The notes beneath the pieces were generated by a model that worked only from the letters and a program-made list of their open reading frames with translations, made no database searches and was not told the DNA's origin. Below are positions 18,024 to 51,525 of a DNA stretch of 64,000 bases, piece by piece. Position 1 is the first letter of the stretch. Every line of letters begins with the position of its first letter. The translations under genes were made by a program, and so were the position numbers. This DNA is from Rhododendron vialii (lineage: Eukaryota; Streptophyta; Magnoliopsida; Ericales; Ericaceae), in the NCBI RefSeq assembly GCF_030253575.1, contig NC_080558.1, positions 1,374,001-1,438,000 of the forward strand, given 5' to 3'.

Positions 18024-19381
18024 GTGGCAGACGAAAGCCACAAACCAATGCTCTTAATTATTCAGGCCAATCAGTAATAAGCGAAATTTACTTTTTCTGC
18101 ACGCACTTGTAGTGGAAGTGTGTATCTGGGTTTGTGTTTTGCTGATCGGTGTTTTGTTGGTGTTTAGCTTTTAATTGCAACAATAAAATCCTCCACCCCC
18201 AACTGATGTCCGAAACTACTGGTTTGCTATACGGGCCCGCAGCCATCACACAAAACGCAATTTATCTCCATGCTTCTTTAGATTGACAAGTTTTGCAACA
18301 CAGAACAAATATCCATATAGCCAAGTTCACTGCCACCAAATAACAGCAACAGTGTTCATGAGGAAAATTATTTTACGCAGTTCGTTTATAACAGCGGCAC
18401 AAAATTCCCAACAAAAAGAAAGCTGCAAAAAATAATCAGCATTGGATGACCAGGAAGCATCAAAGTGAAGGAGACGGAAAAAACTCAATAATCAGTCGGT
18501 ACAGTTTTCGTCATCATGCCTGAAAATCATTCATACCGGAAGATGATATAAAACTTAAAAAATTACAAGGTAGCATAAGAATTCTTGAGAGAGAGACTCA
18601 CAGGAACAGAACATGGTACTTAGCAGAATATGGTATTTAGCGACAACATCCTCAAACTACTATTGACAATCTCGTTGAAACATATACTCCTACTACACTC
18701 CGAGAAAAGATTGGTCTGCCAAAACCAACATGACTGTAAAATCATAAATAGAAAGTCCACCAAACGTCAACTTAAGTGCTACATACACAGCCATCCATCT
18801 AGCTTTACTTGAATGGAGCACACACCGCAAACGAACAATCTGACAGGACCATAGGGCAGCAGGAGCAGATGCTGAACACCAATCAACGAGGACTGTAAAG
18901 CAATACCAATGGATTAGAGAGTTTTCCAATACCAAAACATGAATGGTGTATGCGTGCCCTATTTCATAGATAAATGTCAGGCGTCGTAAATTTCAAACAT
19001 ACAAACGTAAAAAAACCACTGCCACGGAGCATAAGCCCTCGTCATCTAACAACTCTCAGTTCCTTGACTACAACCATTTGCCTAAGCCGGAGTGAAGTTC
19101 ATAACTGAAGTGCAAAACCTCAAAGGCCACTCTAACATGTGTGCTCCCAAGGAAATAAACTCCCGAAAACCCCCCACATGCCTGTGATCTTAAGGAAAAG
19201 AAGGTGGCCACGATTTCGGTAGACGTCCTCCACTATTATGCTCGATGTCATTTATTTCTCATCCAACCAAACTTCATTCAGAACAGTACATACCTGTAGG
19301 ACCGAGAACGATTGTTTGCAGTGCAGGTCTGCACAAATTTTGGTTACCTCCTGACTTCATGATCCTCTCTTCACTGGGACT
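18024..19381. other. 3' flank of the NDUFA8-like gene, duplicated elsewhere
   Basis: No coding sequence recognised. From 17880 to about 18960 this DNA has a diverged direct copy at 42630-43690 (for example AATTGCAACAATAAAATCCTCCA here against AATTGCAACAGCAAATCCTCC there). The 19000-19381 part may be the 3' untranslated region of the RS-domain exon on the other strand. Confidence 0.5.
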
Positions 19382-25767: not shown

Positions 25768-28277
25768 TGATGTAGGACAAAAATGGAGAGTTTTTGTATT
25801 TTATTTTTATTGTTTTAGAATAAGAATTTAGCTAGGAATATTTTCATTTAGGTTAGAATTATTAACTTTCCATATTCAGTTTGATTTTGATTTCTGCCTT
25901 TATTAGGATTCTTGGTCTACAAGAATTAGGATTTTATTTTAATTAATTAGGAAATATCTTTTATTTAATGCCGCTTGTTTTGGCATGATTTATTATTTCT
26001 TTTACGGTAGGATTTCTAGGGTTAGGGTCTTATAAAAAGGGCTGTAACCTATTCAATTATTAGACTTTTAAGCTTTTGATTAATAATATGAAAGAGATTT
26101 TCTCTTTCTTTCTTGTGCGCAAGATTTGCTCGTTGCGACGAGTTGTTTATCTCGTTTGGACTAGTACGCTAACTAGTCTCTCGTGAATTCCGCCGCGTCA
26201 AGTGGTATCAGAGCAAGGCTTTGCCTGGTTCGATGTCACCAAACAAAGTTGAAGACACACCCATTGACGTTGGTCGTGGGCTTACTGACCTAAGGAAGAT
26301 GATGGAGGATACCCGAACACAAATGCAGGATCGAAGCACTCAGTTAGCCGAAATCCGTCAAGATACTCGCACTCAGTTTGCAGAGATCCGAGATTTACTG
26401 CATGGGTTGACTCTACAAATTCGCCAAAGGCCAGAAAGGGTTGAGAAGGATCGCGCGTTGGGATTTGCCCATCGCCAACCTCCTAACCAGAATAGGAACC
26501 GCGTTGAGGGATTTGCCCGCAACCAGCCTATTCACCAAAACGTCTCCGGAGGATATTCTTATTATCACTACGATAGTAGGAATGAATTTGAAGGCGAGTT
26601 ATTCGAGGGCCATGATGATTATCAGTCGATAAAGCGACAAACAAATTTCAGGTATTACAATAAGTTGCCAAAATTTAGTGGTCTTGAATTTTTTGAAGAT
26701 CGTTTGGATTGGATATTGGACATTGATGATTTTTTTAAGTATACGAAAACTCCTTTTGAACAAAGGTGGAGGTTTTTATTATTGAAGCTTACGGGCCCGG
26801 CGCTACAATGGTGGTTAAAATTACAATCGTCAAGAGATCGATTGGGCAAGCGTCGAATTCATGCATGGTCGAGAATTAAAAAACTTTTGGTGGAGAGATT
26901 TTTGCCCTGGAACTATGAGGAATTACTGAAGGAAAAATATGGGCCAAAGCAACAGAATACAACCATTATTGTCAAAGATGTTGAAGAAGTTGCAAAAGAG
27001 GAGGGAGATCGGATTGAACTTGGTGACGAAGAAGAAGTTGGCGATGAAGAAGTTGGTGGCAAAGTGGAATGTTTGAGTGCCCCTATGCTTGAACATCGGT
27101 TGGATTTAGATGGAGGTGCAACCAATGAGGTAATTGCAAGCAAGGATGAAAATATCGCAACATTGTATCAAGTACGAGAACCAAAGGAAGAGGAAAGTCA
27201 TAAATCAGGACCTATAATTTCTCAACATGATGATGTCTTCCCTAATATTGAGCCTTGTGAGCCACACGGAAGTATGAGTGGTCCCAATGGTGAATTTGGT
27301 ACAAGATCTCTTAATGCTACATCATTCATACATGATGTACCAATTAATTCTGCTATGGATCAACATAAAGAGAAATTGGAATTTCTGCATGACGTTCAAT
27401 TTATTGATTTTCTTGGATTGGAGCAGTTTGAGTTTTCACTCAATTCTCGTATTGTGAAAATTGTCAATCAATTGAAGTGTGCAAAAAAACTATCTTGGCG
27501 AGTGTACTTTTATTGGAAGACGAGCGAGAAGTTGAAGTATTCCAAATATTTATTTATTTGGAAAGGCAGATGGCAAGTTTCTAATGAGAACTCGAGGGCG
27601 AGTTCTTTTGAAGAAAATGAGACTGATGTAGGACAAAAATGGAGAGTTTTTGTATTTTATTTTTATTGTTTTAGAATAAGATTTTAGCTAGGAATATTTT
27701 CATTTAGGTTAGAATTATTAACTTTCCATATTCAGTTTGATTTTGATTTCTGCCTTTATTAGGATTCTTGGTCTACAAGAATTAGGATTTTATTTTAATT
27801 AATTAGGAAATATCTTTTATTTAATGCCGCTTGTTTTGGCATGATTTATTATTTCTTTTACGGTAGGATTTCTAGGGTTAGGGTCTTATAAAAAGGGCTG
27901 TAACCTATTCAATTATTAGACTTTTAAGCTTTTGATTAATAATATTGCAGAGATTTTCTCTTTCTTTCTTGTGCGCAAGATTTGCTCGTTGCGACGAGTT
28001 GTTTATCTCGTTTGGACTAGTACGCTAACTAGTCTCTCGTGAATTCCGCCGCGTCATCATGCCAAAACAAGCGGCATTAAATAAAAGATATTTCCTAATT
28101 AATTAAAATAAAATCCTAATTCTTGTAGACCAAGAATCCTAATAAAGGCAGAAATCAAAATCAAACTGAATATGGAAAGTTAATAATTCTAACCTAAATG
28201 AAAATATTCCTAGCTAAAATCTTATTCTAAAACAATAAAAATAAAATACAAAAACTCTCCATTTTTGTCCTACATCA
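25768..28277 (+). mobile_element. Gag-only Ty3/gypsy-type LTR element with an extra inverted partial LTR
   Basis: LTRs of 433 bp lie at 25768-26200 and 27624-28056, differing at about four positions (near 1%), so the insertion is young. A primer-binding site TGGTATCAGAGC follows the first LTR (26203-26214). The only frame (26221-27687) has a retrotransposon Gag domain at about residues 150-240 (FEDRLDWILDIDDFFKY, GPALQWWLKL). No protease, reverse transcriptase or integrase is present, so it is non-autonomous, as in Gag-bearing miniature elements. Beyond the second LTR comes an inverted copy of the first 221 bp of the LTR (28057-28277). The 5-bp repeat TAACT flanks the whole unit (25763-25767 and 28278-28282), so it inserted as one piece. 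The Gag frame looks whole. Confidence 0.85.
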
Positions 28278-28727: not shown

Positions 28728-29024
28728 GCACGCAAACGTCCAAATTACTAATCCAAAGTTTTTGGGCACAGTTTATGCAAATATGAAGCATCGCATTCCT
28801 ACAGTTCCATAACTTGAGGCTATGTAACATCTGCCACCACATTCACCGCACCAAAAAGAAATTGAGCGGAGAAAGCAAAAACAAAGTCATCTGATTAACC
28901 AATACATTATCAATCACAAAAGCATTTTACCTTCACCGTCTCCAATAACCACCTTTTTTTATTGGTTTCTTAATAAGCCTTGGTAATGTCCTAAACATTA
29001 ACTAGAGGAAGTATCCAACAAGTG

Positions 29025-29330
29025 TAGCAAAAATTAATTTTTGATAAATAAGACAGTATATTAAAACCTAAGCACAATGGGAATGCCACCACCCACCAGT
29101 ATACAAAAAAGGCCAAGGCCCAATATGCGAATCAAAAGCATTAATCATTTCAAGAAATTAATCGAGAGACTGGTTGCATTCCCCCCCGTCTCCCAACTAA
29201 ACAACTTGCTAACAAAAACACTCTTCAGCCTATACAAAGAAGTTTAAACACCGTCAAAGTGCCGATGATTTCTTTCTTTCCAAAAAAGCTACATATGGAA
29301 TCCAATCGCAAAATTTTCTTTACAAATGTA
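29025..29330 (-). mobile_element. LINE 3'-end fragment
   Basis: On the minus strand FWKERNHR-like coding is followed by a tail with GGTTTTAATATACTGTC and an A-rich end, as in plant L1 LINE ends (the W-x-ERN motif ends the zinc-knuckle region of their ORF2). Frames are broken and 5'-truncated. A second copy, part of the larger duplication, lies at 34865-35160. Confidence 0.5.
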
Positions 29331-30061
29331 AGATTCGCAGAAGCGCTTCCTTTTCTGTCAAGAGCCTTGATGCCTTGAAAACTCTTCAAAAGAAGGTAAT
29401 CCATAACTATTCAGTGTGGACAACAACTGTCTTAACCTGTAGGCTATAGCTGACTTCTGGCTACTTAGAGCAAGTACACCAATGATAGGTAAAATAACTA
29501 GTGAACAATGTAACTTTTATACTTTACCTAGTCCCTTTTTCTTGCGCCAACGCAGCAGCATAGCTATCATTTCTCTATCACATAAAAATATTGCTTTTTA
29601 AATGCATGCCACATTTGAAAAGTAAAGGGAGAGACGGAAAGAGATGAGTGATAAAGCTGGGTCCAGGAATTAAAAGTATTTGTTTACTCCTTGGCTTGTG
29701 AACAGTGGTTCGCCACAAGTACTGAAGGAGGGAAGTGAAATGTATAATAGATACCCAAGTACCTAATCTGCTGCAGCATGATTTTCTACGATTTGCTTAG
29801 TTACGTCCTTTTACCTATGCTGATATTGTTGCTCTTAGAACCAGATCACAAGGTCAACTGTACCTTCTAACCACTTAGCAGTGCATTTATCCAGCAGTAA
29901 CTCTAGCATTTCAAACAAGAACAAAAAGAGATAAAGAATACAACAACAATAAGGAATACTGAAGGTATTACAGATCAATTTCCTTGAGAGTAAAATTTCA
30001 CAAGAAACAAGAACAAAAAGGCAAACAAAAAAAACAATAAGGTACAAAATGGAACACGCGC

Positions 30062-31570: not shown

Positions 31571-34390
31571 TGTTTAGAGAGGAAAAGTGTGTAGGGTGTT
31601 ATATCAACCCTCACACATAATCATTTATTTATATAATGAGATAGCTTGTTACACAATGTAATTAAGCAATGTGGGACTAAACACAATATACTAGTATACT
31701 AGTATTCCAACACTCTCCCTCAAGCTGGGAAATAGATATCACGCAAACCCAGCTTGTCACATAAAATCTCCAACCGGGGCTTAAATAATGACTTGGTGAA
31801 TATGTCAGCCAATTGAGCACTTGTAGACACGAAGGGAGTTGCTTTAACACCATCAGCCAACTTCTCTCGCACCAGATGACAATCAACTTCGATATACTTA
31901 GCCCGCTCATGAAATACGGGGTTGAATGCAATGTGAATTACCGCTTGGTTATCACAATACAAATTCATAGGCAATTGCACATTGAATCCTATCTCCTCAA
32001 GAAAATATCGCACCCACACAATCTCACATATGGTGTGAGCCATGGCTCTATAATTTGCCTCTGCACTAGACCGTGCAACGACTGTCTGTTTCTTACTCTT
32101 CCAATTAACAAGATTGCCACCAAGAAAAACACAATATCCTGTGGTTGACCTCCTGTCAGATGGGCCTCCCGCCCAATCAGAATCAATGAAGGCCTCAATA
32201 CGCAAGTGACCATTAGCTCTATAAAATAGACCACGCCCAAGATGAGACTTGAGATACTTTACAATTCTAAGAACGGTCTCCCAATGTGGCAGGCTGGCAG
32301 CCGAGGAGCAAACATAAACTGACTCACAATACTCACTACAAATGAAATATCAGGACATGTAATAGTGAGATAGTTCAGTTTACCAACCAAACGGCGATAT
32401 TGATCAGGACTAGACAGTGCCTCCCCCTGATCAATGCATAGTTTGACATTAGGATCCATAGGGGTATTGACAGGTTTCGCCCCTAACAAACCAGTCTCAT
32501 CGAAGATATCCAGCACATATTTTCTCTGCAATAAACTAATGCCATCTTTAGATCGTGCCACCTCGATACCCAAAAAGTATCGCAATCTACCCAAGTCTTT
32601 AGTATGAAATTAGCTCTGTAGAAATGCCTTCAACTCATCAATACCTTTTTGGTCGTCACCCGTAATAATAATATCATCGACATACACAATCAATAATACT
32701 TTTCCTCTTGGAATAGTAACAACACGTGGGGCTGAGCTGGTCACAGAGCTAGACAACACGGATTCATCATCCTCAGAAACTGTAACCTGATGCGCAAATG
32801 GGCGGCCATGAAGGATCCAACAGTACTCAACAGTATGATTATGATTAGTACCATGGCAATATGTGCAGCGACGAGGCCCACGACCACGACCACTACTACC
32901 AAAATCACGACCAAATTCACGACCAAAAGTACCACGACTGCCTCCCCCTATCTCTCGACCACCACGGTCAAAAGCACCAGAAAAAGCACCACCACAAGAG
33001 ACTGTGGTAACCAAAGCCGAGCGGGCAGTAGGAGTCAAATCAACAACACTAGTGTCAGAAACAAATGCCTGGCGGACACGACTGAACACCTCACTGAGAG
33101 AAGGTAAATCTTTATCACCCAAGAGATTAGACCGGATAGAATAATAAGCTGACGAAGGTAACCCAAACAAAAAATGAGCCACCTGCAAGCGCTCACGCTG
33201 ACACTCCATAACCTGAATATCTGAAGAAATGGGCTCACAAGCGTTGAGCTCCTCACAAACACGATAGAACTTGGCATAATACTCCTCCAAGAATAAGCTG
33301 CCAAGTTCAGGAGAAAAGAATTGTTGATAAAGAGCATAAGTCCGCCAGAGATTATAAGCCCCAGAAAACATCTTAATCTTCATCCACACCTTTTTTGCTG
33401 CAACTAAGAAAACCAGAGTATTTTTAATATTTTCCTCCATACTATTCCATAGCTCAACCCAAATCTTAGCATCTGCAGGAACCCAAGCACCATATGATGA
33501 GGCAGTCGCCGCGGGAGGATCAGCATTAAGGTAATGATATTCGACCTCAACAGCCTTAGCCCAAACAGCATAATTTCGACCATTCAACAAGGTGGAGTTA
33601 ATGGACAACCTCTCACGAGACAGAGAAGAACGACTAACAGCGGAAGTCACAGTACTATCTACAACAGATTCGGTGCCGGAGCCCATTGCAAATATACCAA
33701 ATAGCCAAAAGGTGGAGCAAACAACAATAAACTAGGCCAATAACACAGAGGCAGCCACGAACATCAACAACCCATGATTACCAGCGAACAAGTTCAGTAC
33801 AATAGCAAGACCAATAATAGACCAGACATAAAGCAGGGCAGCCGAATAACCCACAAACAAGAAGACATCAGAATACCAATGGCAAACTCATACCATATTT
33901 TCAGAAGCAAACGGCAAAAGCAGCAAGAGATAGAGAGCAGCAACTAGAAGAGTCGCCGGAGCATTGCTGGAGGCAGGCGAGGGTCGCCGGAGGCAGGACG
34001 AGGGTCGCCGGGAACTGGGTTAGGCAGGACGAGGACCGCCGGGGTCGCCGGTGATCGGCGATGTGTGGGTGTGGCTGACGTGGGCTGGGGTAGGGTCGTC
34101 AGGGGTGGTTGAGGGCTGGGTTAGGTTGTCAGGACTGATTTAGGGCTGGAGGGTGGGTTCGAAGGTGGTGGGTGGCTGTTGGCCATGGTGGGTTTAGGGT
34201 TTCAAGGGTGGTTTAAGATTGGGGTTAAGAACCTGCTCTAATACCATGTTGTTTAGAGAGGAAAAGTGCGTAGGGTGTTAATCAACCCTCACACACAATC
34301 ATTTATTTATATAGTGAGATAGCTTGTTACACAGTGTAATTAAGCAATGTGGGACTAAACACAATATACTAGTATACTAGTATTCCAACA
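31571..34390 (-). mobile_element. Ty1/copia LTR retrotransposon fossil
   Basis: LTRs of about 142 bp (31571-31712 and 34250-34390; TGTTTAGAG...TTCCAACA) differ at four positions plus one indel (near 3%), so the insertion is fairly recent. The 5-bp repeat AGAGA flanks it (31566-31570, 34391-34395). A tRNA-iMet-type primer-binding site (complement at 34235-34247) and a purine-rich tract by the left LTR fix minus-strand orientation. Parts seen: a copia-type Gag (33686 to about 32740), the end of reverse transcriptase (YVDDIII-type motif and downstream, about 32690-32259) and RNase H (32205-31720). Most of the polymerase region is not present. The copy is broken, with a few breaks, and non-autonomous. 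It sits inside the duplicated segment described at 28284 and 34396. Confidence 0.9.
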
Positions 34391-34395
34391 AGAGA

Positions 34396-35480
34396 GACTT
34401 CATCCATAAGTCTGATTACCACCTGCAAATGCTCTATTGTCCACATCATCAGATGCCCTCAATATCCACAAGCACATCTTAAGAGAAACATGACATATAG
34501 TTGATCAAAAATACAAAGCTAAATATCATGCATGCAAACATCCAAAGTTTTTGGGCAGAGTTTATGCAAAGTTCCTATAGTTTTTCTTGTCCATCCATAA
34601 AAAGAGGCCTTTGTAACATCTGCCACCACATTCACCACACCAAAAAGAAATTGAGCGGAGAAAGTAAAAACAAAGTCATTAGATTAACCGGTACATTATC
34701 AATCTCAAAAGCATTTTACCTTCACCGTCTCCAATAACTACCTTTTTTAATTGGTTTCTTAACAAGCCTTGGTAATGTCCCAAACATTAACTAGAAGAAA
34801 ATAAGACCTGAGCAGTAAACACAGAGGACAGGCGTATCCGAGAAGAAGTGTAGCAAAAATTGTTTTTGATACATAAGAAAGTATATTAAAACCTAGGCAC
34901 AATGGGAATGACATCAGTATACAAAAAAAGCCACCAAGGCCCTAAACAATATGCGAATCAAAAGCATTAATCATCTCAAGAAATTAATCGAGAGACTGGT
35001 TGCATTCCCCCAGTTTCCCAACTAAACAACTTGCTAACAAAAACACTCTTCAGCCTATATAAAAGAGTTTAAACGCCATTGAAGCGCCGATGATTTCTTT
35101 CTTTCCAAAAAAAAGCCACGTTAAACACAGTGGAGCGCAAAATTCTCTTCTTTACAAATGTAAGATTCCAAAAGCACTTCCTTTTCTGTAACAAGAGCCT
35201 TGATGCCTTGAAAACTCTTAAAAAGAAGGTAATCCATAACAATTCACTGTGGACTACAACTGTCTTAACCTATAGGCTATAGCTGACTTCTGGCTACTTT
35301 GAACCAGATCACAAGGTCAACTGAACCCTATACCCACTTAGCAATGCATTTATCCAGCAGTAACTCTAGCATTTCAAACAAGAACAGAAAGAGATAAAGA
35401 AAACGACAACAATAAGGAATACCGAAGGTATTACCACCTGCAAATGCACTATTGTCCACATCGACCGAGTCAGATGCCCT
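34396..35480. repeat. Tandem-type duplicated segment, right copy
   Basis: Matches 28284-29970 in order. Its start (CACCTGCAAATGCTCTATTGTCCACATC) recurs once more at about 35433-35465, so a third partial unit exists. The copia fossil separates the two main copies. Confidence 0.65.
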
Positions 35481-35569: not shown

Positions 35570-38500
35570 CAAGTGTTTTTTACAAGCCTTGTTTCAAATA
35601 GAACTCCAGATTTTTCCTATAAAAAAAATTACTACTCATGATTAGAAGTGTTCTATTATATACAGGGTAATATGCACGTATGTGTTATCAATACGAACCT
35701 GAAATTCTTGACTTTTCCGCCACCAAATATACGAATCAGAATCTTCAGTATCATCGGTAATGCATTAGGGAACGCTGAAAGGAGGTCCTCCATCGCCGCT
35801 TGTTCAGAATTCCTAGCCCCCTCACTTTGATAGTAATAAAGCCCACATCGATGCAACCAATAGATTCCCCCAGAATCCTGGTATGCCCGGCCACGACTCC
35901 CGTCGTTGTACAATTTCCTAAGTTCATTTTTTACTCCTGATTGTTTTATTTTCATCATCCAGTCTTTTAGTTCTAGAATGGCATAAAAGTTCACTTCCCC
36001 TAAAACTTTTCCCTCAGAATAAGCCATTTTATCGAATATCAACAATTGCTCAAACTTAGCAAAGCTTTGGAGTGAAAACTTTTCAACTATCTTCAGAAAA
36101 TCTCACCTATCCCCCCAGTTGTGGAAGATGGGAGCCCAGTAGATAAACATAGCAAATTCCCTAAAAAATAGAATAAGACATTGTTAGGAGAACGAGGTAC
36201 TATTTAAAGATATAACTAGTTTTTAATCCACGTAGGATAGAACGATGGACTATTAAATGGGGACAGAAGGAGTACCATGTATCATCCCAAAACACCAACA
36301 GATAAGGTTATCTATTATTTTTTAAATTCTAGAAAGAGAGAGAATGAAAATGCAAGGGAAAATATTTATTCTTTGATTTCTGCGTAGTTTTTACACAGAT
36401 TACATTGAATTTTTATATCCCCCTAGACAACAAAATCTATACTCTGTATTATCCAAAAAATACTAACAGATAAGGTTGTCCTTCCAAAATCTATGCACTA
36501 GAGTAATCGCAATAGCAAATATGGTTATCTGTCCAAATTTATACGATGTACTTTTTTTTCAAAAAGACCAACATCTCTACGAATTCTGTACTCTGTATAT
36601 TTGTAATAAAATCAATATATTTAGTTATCTATCCAAATCTATACTCTTTATTATCCCAAAAAGGCTGACAAATAAGGTTATATGTCCAAACCAACATATG
36701 TGTTTCATTTATTCTATATTCGTGAAACTAACATAAATTTATGTATGCGAAAGCAAACAACCATGGAGCCCAATCAACAAGTGATCAGTCAAATTCAATT
36801 TTATTCCCGTCAAGACAAACCTATAATCCACACAAAAATTGACGCAAAATTAACAAATGCACTTTTTGTGAATAAATACAAAAAAAATAATGCTCGAGGA
36901 TTATTTAACCAAAATAGGCCACACACTATCATGATTTGTTTTGGAGAGAAATATAATCATCACAATCTACCGTATATTATGAAATTCGCAAATGTTAACT
37001 GTCCACACCAAGCTCAAGGTGTGCAAACCAAATATCCATCCGTCTATAAAAACGAATGTTTGGAATATTGGAGTAAAATGTTTAATATCAATATAGAAAG
37101 CTCCGTTTTGCAGAATTTTGCATGAAGGGAGATACATGTAGGCATGTCAAGGGAAGCACAAGAATTGTGACAGAGCAATTACATGTGGTGTCCAGCTTTG
37201 TGCCTTGGAACTCACCCACACATTCTCCCACCATACAACCAATATTTAGCCTAGGAGAGTGCAGCCTGGTCCACACATGGGGCCTAATTAGTGTAATTTG
37301 CAAAAGAATTGTACTCCGTACCATACACTAGGCAGATCTCAATATGCGTGAGAGAGAAAGAAAGAAGGTGCACGAGGGAGACGGGGCATTTTTGTCCAAT
37401 TAAGGACCTTAAGCAGTATATTCGCAATAAAATTCAATTAAAACTTTTAAATTAGCACCAATTTTTCTAACTGTTTGAATATACTCCCAACTAACAATAT
37501 ATCTATTGAAGGAGATTAATCAGCAATTGCTAATAGTGGGGGGAGAGTCGCAAAGTTAACACATCATTTAAATACTGGTTTAAAGTTAAATATGTATACC
37601 TCATTGCTTCGAGGTCATCTTCAAGTTTTTTCATTTCAGTGTAGAGGTTATAAAATGCCTGGAGAGCAGGAGGTTCCTTTGGTAACTTCTTGTTGAATCT
37701 GATTTGTTTGGAGTGTTTCTGGACAGCATACTCCACAAGGCCCTTCAAGTCGTCCAAATCTTGCTTGAAACCAATCGGAAATTCTGAAAGGAAGTACAAA
37801 AGAAAGGTTGTAGCCAACAAATCAGAACAAAAAGAAAACAATCAAGCACAAATATATCTATGGACTCATAATGCACAACGGAACTGAAAACACTCCAAAC
37901 AAATCAATGCTAAGTTCAGTTTTTTTCCAAACAGATCACTTGCTGAAGCTAAATGACTTAAGGGTTTAGATTCCCTACAGTCCACTAATCATGTTGGAAC
38001 CACAAGTTATATTAATGATTGATTATGTTAATTTTGTAGAACCTAAGGTATAAAAATTGGTGAAAAAAGTTAAATTGATCTAATTACATAGAAGTCAACT
38101 TTCAAGACAAAACTGACGAAACCAAGTTCAGTTCATAGAAAGAATTCACGTCAAGATCTATAAAATGACCTATTTGGATCATCAAATGCCCGTGGCGGGG
38201 CCAAGACTCAGGATTGCACCCTAAGTCTAATAAATGGACCAGACGGAATACTCATGAATCAAACCCTTTCTAAATCATAAAACAAATCTCATTCTGATCA
38301 CCGATTATCATTCAAAACATTCAAGGGGAAAAAAAACACTTGGATTTCACTACTTCGTCTTCCTTTTCTTGGCAATGAACAGACATTGAGGATGTAGTTG
38401 CAGTATTATATTCATCCAAACAATTGACAAGAACGGATCATCCCCTATAGAAGGTTGTATTAACATAGTACTTATAAAATCCATGATGTTGAAAAAAATT

Positions 38501-39665
38501 GGCCCTCGACACATGTTTGAATTAGAATTCTTACCAATACTCCTATTAAAATTTGTAAGCAAGACTCGAACATTGTTCTCTGTCGGCTCCGTCACCCAAA
38601 CACCCTCCGGCAGATTTCCATGACATATTCCTTTTGTGTGAAGATAGCCCAATGTCCTAGCAATGCACCTGGAAAACAATACATACAAGTACAAGTTCAT
38701 GCAAAAGCAAGACATAATAGATAGCACAAAAGTATCAAAACAACAAAAGAAGAACTGAAGTTGTTACTGTAAGTACAAAAAACGTCAACAAAAAATAATC
38801 CCCCACATAAAATTTTCGAACAAAATACATACAAGAAATTTAAGACTTATCCAAATTTATGAGCCTCTTTGGCATAGCTACGCTAGGCTGATCTCATTTC
38901 TCAAAATTTTTGTCTTCTCTGAACTTCTAATATATTAAGGTCAAAAAAATGCTTTTCTCAATCACATCAATCGGAGGGAATCAAAAAGATGAAAAGTTGA
39001 TCAAAAGCTTAAAAAATCATGGAAGACAAAAATCTTCAATCCGTAGTGATTGATTTGATTCGCGAACCAATCCAGCCCACGCCTCACCCTTAAATCCACG
39101 ATTTAACACAACAAAAATTCATGTGAGAAACAAAAATATAGCAGCACTCTATCATTATTATTAGCAGGATTCAAGTAAAAAAAATTACATATATACACGT
39201 AAACATATGAAAATATGTCAACAGAAATATGTGCATGGAAAGATCAGTGTGTCAATTTGTATACTATAATATACCTAAAAAGTTGGTGATGTTTTTCTTC
39301 AAGTTCCAGATACTGGTATTCGTCTCCTTCCGAAACTACAGTCCACATGGACCACCTTCTAGTTTCGTGCTCGAGCCATTTTTTCACGGGAATGCGGGGG
39401 ACCTGATCCACCACAAGTGTCGACTCCTCCTGATCAAGCACAGCGTGTACATCAAGCACAGCGTGTACTTTGGGAATGTTTGGGTGATCCAAACCATTCA
39501 AACACTGCGACAACTCAAAAAGACAATCGTAATCGTCAAAAAAAAAAAGAAACGTTACATCTCTTTATTGACGCTGGCCCCCTGGCCCCCAAGGAACAAG
39601 ACCCGTCCCTCCTCCGCATCGCACACTCCTCGATCATGTCACTGGTGTACGAGCAAAGAAGTTCT
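35570..39665 (-). pseudogene. Left paralogue of pseudokinase-KEN gene (IRE1/RNase L-like), decayed
   Basis: The blocks match the intact right copy exon for exon: about 39665-39275 (CSYTSDMIEECAM, ELSQCLNGLDHPNIPKV), 38668-38535 (RTLGYLHTKGICHGN...), 38220-38170, 37783-37600 (GFKQDLDDLKGLVEY) and 36160-35699 (the KEN block), plus a further piece at 35616 downward. Exons 2 and 4 have the same lengths as the paralogue (134 and 184 nt). A T11 run near 39540 shifts the first exon out of frame, and a TGA replaces an Arg codon at the start of the KEN block (REFAMFIYWAPIF...). Exon 3 lacks one base relative to the paralogue, which a different donor would compensate. The catalytic His of the nuclease motif is Tyr (WLHRCGLYYYQ). 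An AVLDVHAVLD duplication lies in exon 1. The 5' end is unclear and overlaps a minisatellite; a possible upstream start is at 40219. Function is probably lost. Confidence 0.7.
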
Positions 39666-39669
39666 ATGG

Positions 39670-39860
39670 GGAAGGAGGAGGAGGTGCCAGTGCCGACGGG
39701 TAACGAGGAGGAGGTGCCAGTACTGACGGGTAACGAGGAGGAGGTGCCAGTGCTAACGAGGAGGAGGTGCCAGTACTGACGGGTAAGGAGGAGGAGGTGC
39801 CAGTGCTGCGGGTAAGGAGGAGGAGGCGACGGGTAAGGAGGAGGAGGCGTCTGTGCCGAC
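39670..39860. repeat. Minisatellite, GAGGAGGAGGTGCCAGT units
   Basis: About six units of roughly 18-30 bp, most ending in CTGACGGGTAA. On the minus strand part of it reads TGTSSSLPVS repeats leading into the first exon of the left paralogue; on the plus strand it gives EEEVPVLTGN repeats, which I regard as an artefact. Confidence 0.85.
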
Positions 39861-42600: not shown

Positions 42601-42637
42601 AATTTTTGTTACGTGAGATACGGTTTTCACTGCGCAG

Positions 42638-43690
42638 GTTGAAAGAACTTCATCAGAGGTAGTACACAAAGGAGATGGATGCTTTTTATGTGGGTTGTAT
42701 GCAGTATGCACTACCAGTCTACCACACCAACGAATTTGAATTATGCCGCAAAGAGTAAAAAGAGTTCAAGAAAGCATGTCCTTTGGAATGGATTGTTCCC
42801 GAAACAGCAATATCATCTGTCATCATAATTGTTGGTGAATACGTATGTGCTCGTTAAGTCAGAATTTGCTGTGCCCTTGTGCCTTGGTACCATATATACC
42901 ATGTATGAAATGTCGTGCGGAGTATCTTGTGTTTCATTGGTATTTAGCCGTCAATTGCAACAGCAAATCCTCCACTCCTAACAAATTGTCAAAACCCACT
43001 CGGTTGCTAAACGGGGCCTTTCCATCACACTAAATGCGATCATGTCCATGTTTCCATGAGGCTACATAAGGTTAGCAAGATTTGAAACAAACGAAAAACA
43101 TCTAAATAGCCAAGGCACTGCCGCCGAATAATAGTAACTGCGACCATGAGGAAAACTATTTTGCATGTCCGAAGAAAGTTTAGAAGGGAACAAAACTTAA
43201 TCAGGACCAGATGACCAGGGTAGTATCAATGTGAAAAGGGAGAGAAGAAAAACACAATCAGTTGGCACAGTTTTGGCTTCCTGCCTGAAATTCATTGATA
43301 CCGGAAGATGATGTAAAACTATTACCAAAAAACAAGCAATTTGGTGACAAAAAATTCCAAGAACACGTATTCTTGAGAGACCATGCCTCTCACAGCAACA
43401 GAATATGACATTTAGCCACAAACTCCTCAACTACCATTTAAGATCCCCTTTAAACGTTATATACCAAAAAGACCGTAACATCATTCAATAAAAGTCCACC
43501 AAACATCTACTAAAAGCACTACATATACAGCCACCCATCTAGCTTTTACTTGTGTGGAGCACACTCCGCCAAATTAACAACCCGACAGAACCATAGGGCA
43601 CATGAGCAGTATGCCGAACATCCATCAATGATGACTGCAAAGCAATACCGAAGAGTTAGAGAGTTCGCCAATACCAACACATGAATCATG
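42638..43690 (+). pseudogene. Duplicated NDUFA8-like exon 2 and its 3' flank
   Basis: 42638-42789 copies exon 2 of the 15473 gene (GTTGAAAGAACTTCATC; GAATTATGCCGCAAAGAG). It begins after an AG like the original, contains small insertions (near 42662 and 42705) and a GAG-TAA change within the KEEKEF segment, and the original stop has become a Trp codon. The similarity continues through the 3' untranslated region and flank to about 43690, pairing with 17880-18960. It therefore arose by duplication of genomic DNA, not by a processed transcript. There is no exon 1 nearby, so it cannot make the complex I subunit. Confidence 0.8.
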
Positions 43691-44155
43691 AATGGCGTAT
43701 GCATGCACCAAGTGTGTGGTCTTGCCCTTCGGTGGTGGAAGTTGTCATCAATGATATTCATTGCAAAGTTGTTCAATTAAGGATTTGTGATTTTCTTTTT
43801 ATTCGTAGATTGGTGAATGTAAATCACACCTTGGCAACTTCAAGTTTGTGAGATTTTAGTATTTATATTTGAAAGCTAGACCTCTTAATTGGTTATTGAT
43901 CCACTATGAAACGATAATCATCTTCTTTGATGTGCTAATATGTTTTTCTTACCATGTTGAAGGAAAAAAATAAATGCAACCATGCGTTATGAAATACTTA
44001 TTGGAATTCCTAATAGTAATGTCATGGATCTTTATACATGACCTACTAAGTGACCAGTTCAGTTCTCCAGGTCATTTATTACAGGGTTACACAATATGAA
44101 CTCCAAAATAAATGCATATAATACGCACTACTCTCCCTCAAAGGAGAAGTACAAC

Positions 44156-47100
44156 TTATGCACTTGCTCCACCCTTCGAGGTCTTTTTACAAGCCTTCTC
44201 TAAGTACAACTCCAGCTTTTTCCCAAACGCATTGATTGGCTGACGACTGAATGTCTGTATGAGCTTCTCGAATATTGCAGGTAATGCATCAGGGAACGCA
44301 GAAAGTAAGTCCTCCATTGCCGCTTGATCAGAGTCCCTATCCTCATCAGTTTCATAGTGTTGAAGGGCGCATCTATGCAACCAATAGATTCCCCCAGAAT
44401 GCTGGTATGCTCGACTATCCCTTGTAGCCATATACAATTTCTTCACTGGGTCGTCTTCTCCCATCTGGCATATTCTCGTAATCCAATCCTTCATTTGTGG
44501 AATGGCATATTCCTTCACTTTCTTAAGTACTTGTCCATGTGTGTGTTTATCCTTCGAATCAAATATAACCAATTTCTCAAACTCCTCGGAATCTTGCGAA
44601 GAAAACTTTTCCACAATTCTGATGAAGTCACGCCTATCTTCCCAATTGAAGAAGACTGGGGCCCAATAGATAAATATCGCAAATTCCCTAAATGTTCATA
44701 TTGTTAGAAGTACAATAATAAATATAAATGGTTAATTTCATGGTCAACTCTTAAATAGTAAGTATCACTTGACCCCCTCTCCAATGAAAAAAGTGTACAA
44801 ATAGGCCTCCTCAATTATTCAACATTAAATTTGTTCTTACTCCGTCAAAGGAGAAGGTTAAAAGACCATAAGATGCCTTCAAAATCGCACACCCATTTAA
44901 CAATCCAGGGCAAACATCTTAACAATTATTGAGTCCAATAAATCAACCTGTTCTTAACTAAATTCCCACCACAAAGTCCACTTCTAATTTTCACCAAACA
45001 CCTTTTCATTTAAATGTATGCTCAGACTTCACCAAATAAATTCATTTTACGAGGAAAAAATTAATAACCTCAATTTTGACTCCATTTAAAGAAGACATCA
45101 CCAAAAAAGGACATAAAATAGCCAAGCAACACCCTTATCTCGGAGAATGTCGTTTTTAGCAATGATTTGCATCTCAAACATAAAGCTAGACCCACTTATA
45201 TGAATTACTTCCATTTTTTTGTTTTTGTTTTTGGTAATTACTTCCAATTTTTCTTATTGTTTACATAAACATCCAATTAACAATGTATCTCTTGCAGGGT
45301 ATTAACTGGTACATGCTACTAGTTGATGGGGTTGTCCATGAAGTTAACCCAAATTAAAAAACTGATTTATATGTAAATATTTACCTCATTGCTTCAAAGT
45401 CATTTTTGTGTTGTTCCATTTGAATGTGGAGGTTGTAGAATGCTTGGAGAGCAGCAGGTTCCCTTGGGTACTGTCTGTTGACTTCGATACTTTTGGAATG
45501 TTTCTCGACAGCAATCTCCACAAGGCTCTTAACGTCTTTCAGATCTTGTTTGAAGCCGCTTTGAAAATCTAAAAACAAGCATCAATGTATCTATGGATGC
45601 ATAATGCCCAACGAATTGCCAACATATAGGATGCTCTATTCCAAAAATCACATTTGTTGTCACATTTTGAAGACAAAAATGATGAAATCAAGAAGCTAAA
45701 ATCAATTTGTCAAAAAAGATTCACATCGTGGCCTACAAAAAGAACGAAATGGATCATCAAATGCTCGTGGTGGAACCCACAACTCAGGATGATACCCTTA
45801 ATTCCAATAAATAGACTAGAGAGAAATCCAAATTCATGAATGAAACCCTTTCTAAATTTGAAACCAAATCTCATTCTAATCACTAAAACTCATTTAGAAC
45901 TTTCAAAAGATAACCCACATGAAATTTTATCACGTCTTTATCCTTTTATGGGCATCAACAAGAAATTGAGGAATTTTAGCCGCTTTATTATATTATCCAT
46001 ATAATTGAAGCTTCCCCCATGGAAGGAAATATTACAACGCGTATAAAATCTATTTAATAAACGATTGGCTTTGACTCGAATTGGGTTAGAAAGGTCACCG
46101 ATACTCGTGTTAAAATTTGCAAGCGATACGCGAACATCATTCTCTGTCGGCTCCGTCACCCAAATGCCCTCCAACAGATTTCCATGACAAAGATGTCTTG
46201 TATGAAGATAAGCCAATGTTTTAGAAATACACCTAAAAGGAAAAATAGATACATCAGATACATACATAAATACGTGTACAAGGAACCACAAAAGTATCAC
46301 CAACAAAAGCGAAAGACGAATCAAAAGTTCTTGAATTTTTTTTTAAGAATAGTGCAACTTTATTAACATATTTGATTCCTATTGCACTTTGAAAACTACT
46401 TCTAAAAATATGATAAAAATCGCATCTACCTTTGACAAAAATGGTACATCTTGATTTTAGTCCAACTTGGATTGCTTACCACTCTCCAGCTTGGCCATGG
46501 TTGCCACCGTGGCACATCAGAAATCGCAATGCATACCCGCGATCCCATGAAATTACATAAGAAAGGGTAAATTTTGAGGCTATACTTAGAATTGAAATCG
46601 TTGTTTGGGTTCGCAGGTTCATATGCACACATATAGGGGTGTCAGGGGCTTGCAATTTTCATTTCCTTTCCGCCACAGCCACGAGGGAAATGACCACAGC
46701 AGCTCCCTCCCTCCCTGTAACGACCCGCGCCAACTGACCTGCTAAGTGCTAACCCTTAGCTTAATCACGTGGCTAAAAAGGTTAACCTTAGGTTCATAGT
46801 AGCTAGTGGGTATCGCCATGACGCCATATATACAACACATTGCTCCCACATCTTACCGATGTGGGACTCTATTTGTGGATTCTCACAATCTCCCCCACTT
46901 ATAATGCAACGTCCTTGTTGCATTGGCCCAACAACCTTCCCCTAGTGATCATAGTGTGACACTTAGCTCTATACAGCACACAGGCTCATACCAAATTCTA
47001 GAGGTAGACCAGGGTTGTACTTTGATACCAATTGTAATGACCCGCGCCAGCGCCAGCGCCAGCTAATCTGCTAACCCTTAGCCTAACCACGTGACTCAAA

Positions 47101-47495
47101 AGGTTAACATCAGGTTAATGGTAGCTGGTGGGTATCGCTGATTTGCATATATACATCTCTCTCTCAGGTTAATGGTAGCGGGGGTGTCTCTCTCTCTCAC
47201 CACCCCCCACAACCTTGTCTATTTAGTGTATGCGTAAACGTATTGATGTGCCCCCCTCTTTTACGTAATATCTAGTTAAAAGGCACGTTTTCCTATCTCT
47301 TTGTATGTTTACCTTCAGTTATTGGGTTGTTTTCTAGGTTGTGTTACGGATGGAATTCCTTTTAAGTGTCGTTGGGCATTTTCAAGTTTTGGACATATCA
47401 CTTTTTTAATCTCTCTCTCTCTCATGTAAACCACCCTCACTACCTTGTCTATTTTGTGTATGCGTATATGTATTGATGTCCTCCACGCCCACAAC

Positions 47496-47526
<31 letters not shown>

Positions 47527-50500
47527 ATATCTAGTTAAAAGACATGTTTTCCTATCTCTTCGTATGTTTACCTTCGGTTATTGGGTTGTTTTCTAGGTTG
47601 TGTTATGGATGGAATTCCTTTTTAAGTGTCGTTGGGCATTTCCGAGTTTTGGACGTATCACTTTTTTAACTAATAGACACATTAAGAAGCCTGTTTAGTG
47701 TAGAATTGCTGCAATCATATCATTCTGGTTGAAGATTTAGGATAAACAATAACATTTTCCGCGTCATGCACGATTTTTTCCCTAATAAACATGATTCTTT
47801 GATTTGACACTGCTAAACAAAGCTCAATTAGCTGAACACAGCCCAAGTTATAACAATAATTTAATAAATAGCGTAAGTGAACCTCACCAATTAAGTGTTA
47901 TGGAGTGCGGAGTCTGATACACCGAGCTACCCGTGATTCTCGTAGCTCGTAACTCTGCCAACATATGTATTCCGGACACATTCTTTAACATGCTCTCGCA
48001 GCTACCTTAAAGAAGTTTATATTGGGTGAACCACTTAAAATCCGATGTTCTCGTTTATACCATTTAGATATTGTGTGCTCTAGCAAATTCCTAGGAATAA
48101 TTTAGATTTTTTTTCCTATGACACAACATAGGCAGGCTAGGCAATAGTGTCACCATAATTTGATTGTGTTTTACAAAGGGATCTTCTCCTTGGCTCCTTG
48201 CATCAGAAGTTGGCAAGCTCAAAAGCTCTATACTGCTACTCTACCTCTCAGTCTAAGATAGCCTCTGCCCTCACCTAGTCCACATCCACCTCTGGTACTC
48301 CCTCCAGAAATGACCCTACTCTGGCGCCCTCCGGCCGACCTTCCACTGAATATTTTTCAATAAATAGCTAAGGCCAAAGATTAAGAGAGGTCAATTTCTT
48401 GCACTATCTTGATAATTTGGAGGAAGCTTACTCTTAAGGATTTAGAAATAGAGAAATACACTAAGCTTCCTATCCAAAGACAAATGGCTTCTCCAGCTAG
48501 GATGGCCCAGCCCCCAATAGTCTAAGCATGTCTCTTCTGGTAGTTGAGTGCAGTTATGAAGTCACGAAATATTCCTTCAAAGGATATGCAATCCTCTCTC
48601 TAGCTCACATTAGAAAATCCATAATCAGAAGGCCCCACTTTGGCAGCCTTAAGGCCAAACTTCCACAACAATCAACCGAGTTCACTAATGAGCTAAGGCC
48701 AGATATTAACAGAGATCACCGTTTTGTGTTCCCTTGACTTGACAATCTGGGAAGCTTACTCCAAGGCTTTAAAGATTGGAAAGTACCATAAGTTTCCTAC
48801 CCATAGAGAAATGGCTTCTCAAGCAAGAGAGATCCAACATTCTAAGTCTGTAGCATTTGCAGTATATTACCAAATGTATCCTTTTCGAAGTACATGAGTA
48901 AAAAATCATTCAGCTACTGATGTTCCATCAGGTTGCACAGTTGAATCTTTTTACATCTTATTGCTGTAACATGTTCTACCTTAGTACTAGCTACTAGCAA
49001 AAGCAAAGCCAGCTTCACAAGCAAATATACTAGAAGATGTACAAAAGCCTTCTTTGTTTTATAAAACTTTTCCAGTTTCCTTTTGTGGGCTTCTCTTGAG
49101 TTGACCCAAGTTGGTGGGTTCAAAATTATAAGTTAATGCCTACTACTCATTGAGTAGAACCGCCCCAGCAAATTGGGGTAGAAGTACAGATAAAATAAAA
49201 TTACGTACTTGCCAGGTATGGGACGGTATGTCCTGCCCCTTACCAGGAGGGCCCACCCCAAACAGCCCCCCAAGCAAATTGGTCCAGTGTGATCGTGCTG
49301 ATGTTTGTCGACATGCAAGGCTGGGCCAGCCTTCCTTTGATCAACACGACCATTTGACCATATTGCTTGCAGGAAACATCTAGTCAAAAGGGGAGGAGGA
49401 AAGCATTGGGGTCTCCACCTCCAGACATGATTCTGGGAGGGTTGAGAAACCATTTTGTTGCCCAAAGGCAAGTATGACTCATATTTCCAAATAAAACCAT
49501 TCCAAAAACAGTTGGCATGATCTAATTAAGACACCATGGGAAGAGATGAGCCACCAGAATACTTCTTGTCTTCTTCGGAGCAGAGCTGGAAAGGAAGGAG
49601 GAGATGGAAGAGTTTGAGAATAATCCATGGACGCATCTCCAACCCAATAATCCATTTGAGAGTATGAAAATATTTTTTTTTTACACATAAAGTGATAATA
49701 GAAAAAATACTATTCATGTTTACTCCAACCACAAATCCTCTTTGCTTCCAAGATAACTTTATTAATTAAAAAGTCTTATTTGATACTCTCGTGAGGATAG
49801 TTGGTACAAAAATTTATTAGCAAAAGCTCATAGAGGAGGGTTGAGAGGATGGGTTGGAGTGGTTTGATACTCTCAAACATAGATACAAAGTATGGGTTGG
49901 AGATGCTTTTATTGATTCAGTAGTTGTCATTGTTGTTGGTTGGTCGTTTGCCAAAAGAGGGATAGTGCCCTAAGTGGTGTGGGGTGAGGTCTTTATAAGT
50001 AGAACAAAAGTAGTAAAAGTGGAATCGCTGTAAACGTGAAAAGAAGGTGCACGCCAGAAGAGAAGAGTTTACTGCTAGACTAGCAAACAGTAAGATGTGA
50101 TTTCAGTACTAAAACTGAAATCGCACTTAACAAATACGATTTCAGGGTCACACTGCCCCAAAAAAAGCGCATGCCAGAAGAGTTTATTGCTAAATGTGCA
50201 AAAAGTGCATGTAAAACCTGATGGGGTTCACAGTACGCATCTGTTCTTGTATCACTTGGAGTAACGTCATACCCTAACTCTCAACTTCTTGAGTATATTA
50301 CGTAAGTATGACCCTTGTTTCCCAAGTCCCCCCATCCTGACAAATATCTAGCAACACTATGGGAAGAGATGAGCCACCAAAATATTTAGCATGATTCGAC
50401 TATGACCCTTGTCATTATAATTGGTTGGTTGTTTGCCAAAAGAGAGATAGTGCCACAAATGGGCTGAGGTATTTATACATAGAACCAAAGAGGAAAAAAG

Positions 50501-51475
50501 AAATCACCGTAAAAAGAAGCAATTTCTAGGATTAAAATGAACTTACACTGTTTGAATGCGATCTCATAGTTAAAATGAAATCACATGGTAGGAATGCGAT
50601 TTCAGGGTTACACCATGTAGCAAAAAAATTAACGCAGATTTATATAATTTAATTTTATATAATTTGTGGTGTGCCAAGGTGGCAGCCATTGCCACGCTGG
50701 AGAATGGTAAGCAATCCAAGTAGGAGAGAAATCACGATGCTCAGAGATCGCAGAAGGTAGACGTGATTTAAGAAAGCACCGTATTTTTAATATCAATCTG
50801 CGAACAGGGGAACGAATCGAATTCTTGATCAAATTGCAATGTTGCCAAAACAAAAAATTCAAAAGTTCTTATTGTGAAAAAGTACCTGAACAGTTTGCTA
50901 TACTTTTCTTCAAGTTCCAGATATTGGGTTCCAGTTGAATCCACGGTCCACATCACCCATTTTCCAACCTGATGATCAAGCCATCTTTTCACGGGAACCG
51001 AGTGAATCCGATCCACCACTAGTGTAGGTTCTGTCTGATTAAGAGCCGCATGCACTTTCGGAATGTTTGGGTGATCCAAACGGTTCAAAAACTGCGACAA
51101 CTCCGAAACTTGAACAAAATCTTCAAAGGAGAGGAACGTTACCTGCTTATTGAGGTTGGCCCTTTGAGTATTGCACATGGAACAAGACCCGTCCCTCCTC
51201 GGCATCGCGCACTCCTCAATCCTCTCACCAGTATAGGAGCACAGTAGTTTAATTGAGAAGGGAGTGTCTTTGTCGATTGATTTTTTCCGACTAGCCCTCT
51301 CTTCTCCGCTATCCATAGAGCTTTCCCTCTTTTTTCCGTTTTCCATGACGGGTTCTGCGGGAGGTGCGCTGGTGTGGCGACAGAGAGTGTGGATTGAAGT
51401 GGGGTTTGATTTTTTCCGACTTGCCCTCTCTTTTCCGCTATCCATAGAGCTTTCACTCTTCTTTCCGTTTTCCAT
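44156..51475 (-). CDS. Pseudokinase-KEN domain protein, IRE1/RNase L-like without sensor
   Basis: Five exons, 51475-50886, 46232-46099, 45796-45737, 45568-45385 and 44687-44156, have GT...AG boundaries with agreeing phases and total 1,500 nt, 499 residues. Residues 1-66 are a charged, duplicated head (MENGKK-ESSMDSG-ERASRKKS twice). Residues about 76-325 follow a protein kinase: LDHPNIPKV at the N-lobe, CHGN (212-215) where HRD belongs, NFN (236-238) where DFG belongs, and KQDLKDVKSL in the C-lobe. Gly-loop and VAIK lysine are absent, so it is a pseudokinase. Residues about 326-470 match the KEN nuclease domain of IRE1 and RNase L (YWAPVFFNWEDRRDFI; SGGIYWLHRCALQHYE). Arg428 and His433 line up with the catalytic Arg and His; the neighbouring Asn is Cys429. 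There is no signal peptide or membrane segment, so it should be cytosolic or nuclear. Intron 1 is 4.65 kb. The kinase assignment is firm; KEN is strong by eye but needs a profile search. Confidence 0.75.
46430..46525. repeat. Inverted partner of 50665-50735 inside intron 1
   Basis: CCAACTTGGATTGCTTACCA and GCCACCGTGGCAC here occur as reverse complement near 50672-50735 (GTGCCAAGGTGGCAGCC, GGTAAGCAATCCAAGT). The two lie 4.2 kb apart facing each other, and may be ends of one old insertion or two copies of a small repeat. Confidence 0.5.
46716..47165 (-). mobile_element. TRIM-like LTR fossil
   Basis: Direct repeats start TGTAA-GACCCGCGCCA at 46716 and 47033; the first runs to CA at 46887 (172 bp). 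The sequence TTTGATACCAAT just before the second repeat (47021-47032) is a reverse-complement primer-binding site. The total size and empty interior fit a TRIM on the minus strand. The right repeat is incomplete; a broken copy. Confidence 0.65.
47187..47668. repeat. Imperfect tandem duplication with a C29 tract
   Basis: Two units of about 225-255 bp (47187-47412, 47413-47668) share GGTTGTTTTCTAGGTTGTGTTA and AAGTGTCGTTGGGCATTT. In the second unit a run of 29 C (47498-47526) replaces the short C run of the first. Confidence 0.85.
48370..48850. repeat. Diverged direct repeat of about 150 bp
   Basis: 48370-48520 and 48690-48845 share GGAAGCTTACTC, AAGTTTCCTA/AAGCTTCCTA and AGAAATGGCTTCTC in order. 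Located in intron 1 of the 44156-51475 gene. Origin unknown. Confidence 0.5.
49520..50525. repeat. Direct repeat pair in intron 1
   Basis: ATGGGAAGAGATGAGCCACCA and GTTTGCCAAAAGAGGGATAGTGCC occur at 49534/49947 and again at 50359/50431. The units are of unequal length (about 540 and 190 bp). The rest of the intron shows no coding sequence. Confidence 0.6.
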
Positions 51476-51525
51476 GACTGGTTCTGCGGGAGATGCGCTG
51501 GTGTGGCGACGGAGAGTGGGGTGCG
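51279..51525. repeat. In-frame 129-bp tandem duplication at the gene start
   Basis: GATTTTTTCCGACT begins at 51279 and at 51408, a period of 129 bp (43 codons). It duplicates the initiator region of the pseudokinase-KEN gene, so its protein has two copies of the MENGKK block and two possible start codons (51475 and 51346). Confidence 0.9.

Follow-up and report, generated by a model that had tools for sequence, protein, structure and literature searches.

The 64,000-nucleotide stretch of Rhododendron vialii contig NC_080558.1 analysed here (positions 1,374,001 to 1,438,000, hereafter the window) carries on its minus strand, from 51475 to 44156, an open spliced gene of four coding exons and three introns (copy A), and comparison within the window revealed a diverged and broken tandem copy on the same strand (copy B, 35588-39760, at ~39.7-35.6 kb). 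With a confidence that stops a little short of even, we read the pair as a divergent tandem family of putative soluble proteins in which a dead kinase is followed by a KEN-like domain. The original prediction for this locus had been an intact gene of five exons and 499 residues, encoding a pseudokinase fused to a KEN domain and possibly acting as a soluble ribonuclease; the gene and its kinase-like part were borne out, the KEN assignment is suggested only, and the exon and residue counts were not confirmed.

The gene pair and its kinase-like part

The spliced open frame between 44156 and 51475, with phases that agree at every junction, was confirmed, and the gene is real. Four coding exons suffice for it, a fifth being unneeded, and the protein has 479 residues with an exon-2 donor at 46099 or 500 residues with a donor at 46036 (Table 1). 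That the frame is more than a chance one is supported by copy B, which can be aligned with each of the four exons, the matching pieces having 55-75% amino-acid identity. The exons of the two copies share 68-81% of their DNA, and their gaps are mostly in frame: exons 2, 3 and 4 hold a single gap in total (3 bases), and exon 1 holds five, two of them with lengths not divisible by three, which constitute the frameshift of copy B. In the three intron stretches, where intron 1 was represented by its last 600 bases only, identity is 43-64%, and 24 of 31 gaps are not multiples of three.

Selection on the pair was estimated from the ratio of non-synonymous to synonymous substitution rates (dN/dS). The estimate used 347 codons from 11 gap-free blocks picked by hand, a choice that leaves out the N-terminal ~76 residues, the C-terminal end, all stretches with gaps and the frameshifted section of exon 1, and that biases dN downward. 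The comparison gave dN 0.228, dS 0.859 and dN/dS 0.266 (bootstrap 0.188-0.363), with values by part of 0.162 for exon 1, 0.271 for exon 2, 0.445 for exon 3 and 0.255 for the last exon. We therefore regard the family as formerly constrained and protein-coding; to judge from these substitutions, purifying selection acted on it during much of the period after the duplication.

The kinase-like part was weakly matched in both copies (2/2) by the Pfam family PF07714 (PK_Tyr_Ser-Thr), with a best E of 0.0018; copy A reached E 0.0028 in its 500-residue form and 0.0018 in an N-terminally trimmed form of 436 residues, at 17.5 and 18.1 bits, below the cut-off of 23.1. In HHalign a profile of the two copies matched a yeast/human IRE1 kinase+KEN profile with P 1.6e-4, the confident columns all falling within the catalytic-loop region of the kinase, between helix E and the DFG position. 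As originally predicted, the copy A model has CHGN for HRD, NFN for DFG, by eye no GxGxxG, and WLHR...QHYE in the last exon; judged by eye, copy A lacks the features of an active kinase (Gly loop, VAIK Lys, HRD, DFG). In the 479-residue model a helix F-like stretch follows NFN almost directly, and therefore the activation segment seems to be absent from copy A.

The maximum 19-residue hydropathy of copy A is 0.85, and the best value for segments starting within the first 29 residues is -0.13. We therefore predict that copy A has no membrane anchor and that its protein is soluble. The earlier description as a pseudokinase with neither sensor nor membrane helix is thus supported by the sequence, by hydropathy and by the weak kinase matches.

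The KEN-like tail

A KEN descent of the tail is suggested by profile comparison. When the two copies were compared with KEN rows in HHalign, P was 0.009 with four rows, 0.0022 with five rows and 0.0087 with four rows in a second run, and column-shuffled decoys equalled the KEN score in 2/1000 cases in the P 0.0022 run and in 6/1000 cases in the P 0.0087 run. The signal is centred on the first helix, where PVFFNWEDRRDFIRIVEK is paired with HPFFW..., and extends past the DW region in the five-row and RNase L runs. The RNase L KEN pair alone gave P 0.011, the best of the KEN pairs; as a control, RNase L against IRE1 gave P 2.8e-12 in the same profile test.

Several results weigh against a KEN identity, and the alternative that they favour, in which the last exon adds to a dead cytoplasmic kinase either a helical domain of another kind or an extension specific to the lineage, has to be given substantial, if less than even, weight. 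The Pfam profile PF06479 (KEN/Ribonuc_2-5A, cut-off 23.3 bits), which the original prediction had put forward as a check, found no match in either copy up to E=10; the yeast Ire1 KEN domain, as positive control, scored 152.9 bits (E 6.1e-45) in that search. Nor did sequence or profile searches of the PDB bring up IRE1 or RNase L among the 6, 2 and 35 matches listed. The catalytic half alone (WLHR...QHYE) was matched by 115/500 decoys and is not significant, and the two copies against the IRE1 KEN pair alone gave P 0.21 and lay off register. Furthermore, a 102-codon motif-bearing piece of the last exon has dN/dS 0.449 and is less constrained than exon 1. Run with HMMER, the KEN test discriminated poorly, 33/5000 shuffles of copy A and 54/5000 of copy B scoring as high. 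The remaining Pfam matches were to Kdo (0.015) and Siah-Interact_N (0.16), none above a cut-off where one was shown, and for the last exon alone to MauJ (E 0.12), which was not counted.

Structure prediction, also proposed originally, was run with AlphaFold on contiguous last-exon translations, with copy B as alignment. The predicted local distance difference test (pLDDT) values of 48.0 (177 residues) and 49.9 (145 residues) mark models too poor to decide the fold, and Foldseek found for neither of them a match at E<=0.001 among the best 50 of 177 and the best 50 of 71 matches, a result that adds to those above. The third-ranked match of the second Foldseek search was a chain of the MntA-HepT toxin-antitoxin system (E 2.7, not counted), a HEPN protein. 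The order of helices in the two low-confidence models, on the other side, is compatible with a KEN/HEPN fold and speaks for KEN.

What speaks for KEN over another helical domain, besides the few decoys that equalled the KEN score, is the position of the tail directly after the kinase-like part, and a pattern Y..Rx4H..FP that occurs in 156/50000 shuffles, although it was picked with the data already in view. Rx4H on its own turns up in 12609/50000 shuffles. We rejected Rx4H and the post hoc combined patterns as proof of KEN, the loose one being found in 2/5 KEN rows and Y..Rx4H..FP in 4/5. We take KEN descent of the tail as suggested rather than demonstrated.

A Tyr belongs to the KEN active site. 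The relevant passages of PMC3710099 name an Arg, its polar neighbour and a His as KEN active-site residues, and place KEN in the HEPN superfamily with its Rx4-6H motif. When copy A was jointly aligned with IRE1 and RNase L in MAFFT, its WLHRCALQHYE motif placed Arg and His on the Arg/His columns of both, and the Tyr of RAYQHS fell on the RNase L Tyr; Arg and His are also in register in a forced full-length KEN alignment (HHalign, five-row run). This His, given earlier as residue 433, is residue 434 of the 500-residue model and 413 of the 479-residue model. Other features count against KEN: the KEN Asn column holds Cys in copy A, the copy A Tyr is not on the IRE1 Tyr in the joint alignment, and a forced kinase+KEN alignment has DW, Y and FP in register with Arg and His three columns off. 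Copy B, moreover, has Tyr in place of the presumed catalytic His.

Given the weak KEN tests and the commonness of Rx4H, the claim of a ribonuclease was not borne out, while its qualifier, soluble, is supported by hydropathy. We consider it unlikely that copy A is an active, soluble endoribonuclease of the RNase L kind, switched by ligand binding to its pseudokinase. Such a protein would suit the predicted solubility and the alignable KEN-site Arg and His of copy A, but the Asn-to-Cys replacement, the loss of the His in copy B and the weakness of the KEN evidence altogether stand against it, as does the Pfam search of the copies, which found no ankyrin or other ligand domain; nuclease activity of the tail is speculation.

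Under our preferred reading of a dead-kinase/KEN-like family, a degenerate kinase domain would stand directly before a diverged KEN-like helical domain, in the order of IRE1 and RNase L. The dead kinase, presumably unable to phosphorylate, could provide a scaffold for dimerisation or ligand binding and thereby bring two KEN-like tails into contact. Since the copy A tail keeps an alignable Arg and His and has lost the Asn, its cleavage of RNA may be weak, or it may bind RNA without cutting it; the His is gone in copy B. A defence or stress family with fast turnover would be expected to show such duplication, divergence and decay (cf. the passages on KEN expansion in PMC3710099).

Gene structure, splicing and surrounding repeats

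The exons of both copies are collected in Table 1. Exon 2 of copy A aligns gap-free with that of copy B at 80.6% DNA identity, and the copy B donor (ATTG/GTAAGA) sits exactly at the position of the copy A donor at 46099; for this reason we prefer 46099 to 46036.

Table 1. Exons of copies A and B, all on the minus strand; a slash in a donor sequence marks the exon end.
Feature	Coordinates	Strand	Content	Support or remark
Copy A exon 1	50886..51475	-	Ser/Lys-rich N-terminus, then pseudokinase N-lobe up to helix E; block LLCSYT..IEECAM common to copies A and B	open frame, copy B alignment
Copy A exon 2	46099..46232	-	helix E and catalytic-loop region, CHGN for HRD, NFN for DFG	copy B alignment
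Copy A optional exon-2 extension	46036..46098	-	21 residues (500-residue model)	phase agrees; without support from copy B
Copy A exon 3	45385..45568	-	degenerate kinase C-lobe (FKQDLKDVKSLVEIAVEKHSK)	76.1% DNA identity to copy B, gap-free
Copy A last exon, with stop	44156..44687	-	KEN-like part: RAYQHS, WLHRC (Cys for Asn), QHYE, FP
Copy B exon 1 region	39270..39661	-		broken by 4- and 2-base indels near 39.55-39.60 kb
Copy B exon 2	38535..38668	-		donor ATTG/GTAAGA
Copy B exon 3	37600..37783	-
Copy B KEN-like exon	35695..36160	-	Tyr (LYYYQ) for presumed catalytic His of copy A	in-frame TGA 36105-36103

The exon-2 donors of copy A are poor. With a scoring matrix for donors, the donor at 46099 (ATCG/GTGACC) scores -2.1 and the alternative at 46036 (CGTT/GTAATA) scores -2.5, values that are equalled or exceeded by 30% and 36%, respectively, of all minus-strand GTs in the window; the other two donors of copy A score 4.1 (TCAG/GTACTT, exon 1) and 4.6, and the homologous copy B donor scores 2.7. 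Read-through beyond both exon-2 donors leads to a stop in intron 2, ahead of the KEN-like part. The word intact, used in the original prediction, therefore fits the reading frame of copy A and not surely its splicing, and the weak exon-2 donor makes expression of copy A uncertain.

There is accordingly a sizeable chance, though one that we would not bet on, that copy A is itself a decaying pseudogene, in which the frame is still open, the exon-2 donor consensus has been lost and most transcripts would reach the stop before the KEN-like part. The contrast between GTGACC in copy A and GTAAGA in copy B, the stop on read-through and the already broken state of copy B are what one would expect of such a gene. 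Set against them are 479 codons without stop or frameshift, the second GT at 46036, which has the right phase and keeps the frame open, and a dN/dS well under 1, although a pairwise value averages the whole history of both lineages and is silent on whether copy A is still constrained. Copy A may be losing splicing, and such decay is compatible with the dead-kinase/KEN-like reading, which concerns the identity of the family; our probabilities for the several explanations are not exclusive and need not add up to one.

An additional exon lying between 50886 and 46232 was considered and rejected, as the first two exons meet in phase and together give a stretch that looks like an ordinary helix E (KYSKLFRCISKTLAYLHTRHLCHGN). 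The tempting sequence near 46.45-46.52 kb is an arm of a 78-base inverted repeat (46447-46524 and 50662-50739, 85% complementary, 4.1 kb apart) that bounds most of intron 1 of copy A. Intron 1 of copy B is only ~0.6 kb long, and together with the inverted repeat this indicates that a transposon-like insertion probably enlarged intron 1 of copy A. The N-terminus of copy A is built by two tandem copies of a 116-base block at 51277..51521, found by self-BLAST, which are 93% alike and 129 bases apart. In copy B an apparent extra intron near the 3' end, absent from copy A, was seen by eye on the minus strand at 35590-35720 (TTCAG/GTTCGT ... TATAG/GAAAAAT).

The window also holds repeats and frames that resemble mobile elements. 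A degraded copia-type element on the minus strand (31720-33731) adjoins copy B; it has a gag-like frame (Retrotran_gag_2, E 0.0084, below cut-off) and a second frame that is RNase H-like by eye, with no Pfam match, and related repeats lie at 28751-29469 and 34540-35302 (82%). The interval 25768-28277 holds a 433-base direct repeat (99%) and a matching 222-base inverted piece, with a Retrotrans_gag-like frame inside at 26173-27687 (Pfam E 0.00027, below cut-off). Finally, a direct repeat of ~1.1 kb (17887-18952 and 42634-43694, 68% identical) has its second member just downstream of copy A. Outside the window, a short pattern matched 9 and 94 stretches of viral contigs and 15 of genome contigs; by tblastn none of them was a relative, in a search able to reveal close relatives only.

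Relation to known kinase-KEN proteins

Both IRE1 without a sensor and expanded KEN proteins of plants have already been published. Ribonuc_2-5A is listed, in the relevant passages of PMC7333395, among the extra domains of plant proteins assigned to the receptor-like kinases; these proteins may be ordinary IRE1. Among the matches listed in our literature search, which covered the literature without most subscription journals, none was a plant pseudokinase-KEN protein by its title or the start of its abstract. Should the tail be KEN, the family would represent a kinase-KEN protein that lacks the sensor, the membrane anchor and kinase activity and that probably works outside the unfolded-protein response; it would open the question of an RNase L-type RNA decay switch in plants. 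If the tail is not KEN, we are left with a divergent dead-kinase family. An improbable extension is that a plant lineage independently built an RNase L-like protein, in which a soluble kinase remnant without activation segment only switches a KEN-type domain that cuts or binds RNA; its genes would form tandem arrays subject to birth and death, in which a member can lose the catalytic His.

The cytosolic part of IRE1, including plant IRE1A/B, resembles copy A in its order of kinase and then KEN-like domain, and some KEN landmarks are in register. Copy A differs from IRE1 in having no lumenal domain, membrane helix, kinase motifs or PF06479 match, in its apparently missing activation segment and in the lack of significance against the IRE1 KEN pair. 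Arabidopsis IRE1C (AT3G11870) is like copy A in lacking the lumenal sensor, according to the relevant passages of PMC6883098 and PMC6788458; unlike copy A it keeps its kinase and ribonuclease parts in those passages, and its transmembrane domain in that of PMC6883098, with high identity to IRE1A/B.

Animal RNase L, in which a pseudokinase-like part precedes KEN, shares with copy A a soluble character, as predicted for the latter, and provided the best KEN pair in our comparisons. Copy A is unlike RNase L in that no ankyrin repeats, which bind 2-5A in RNase L, were found with Pfam and in that its KEN similarity is weak. The passages of PMC3710099 on plants describe lineage-specific expansions of KEN, mainly in monocots such as rice, for which a defence role is predicted. 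In that account KEN expanded apart from the kinase and is inferred to be active, whereas in copy A a kinase remnant is attached and the putative active site is partly lost.

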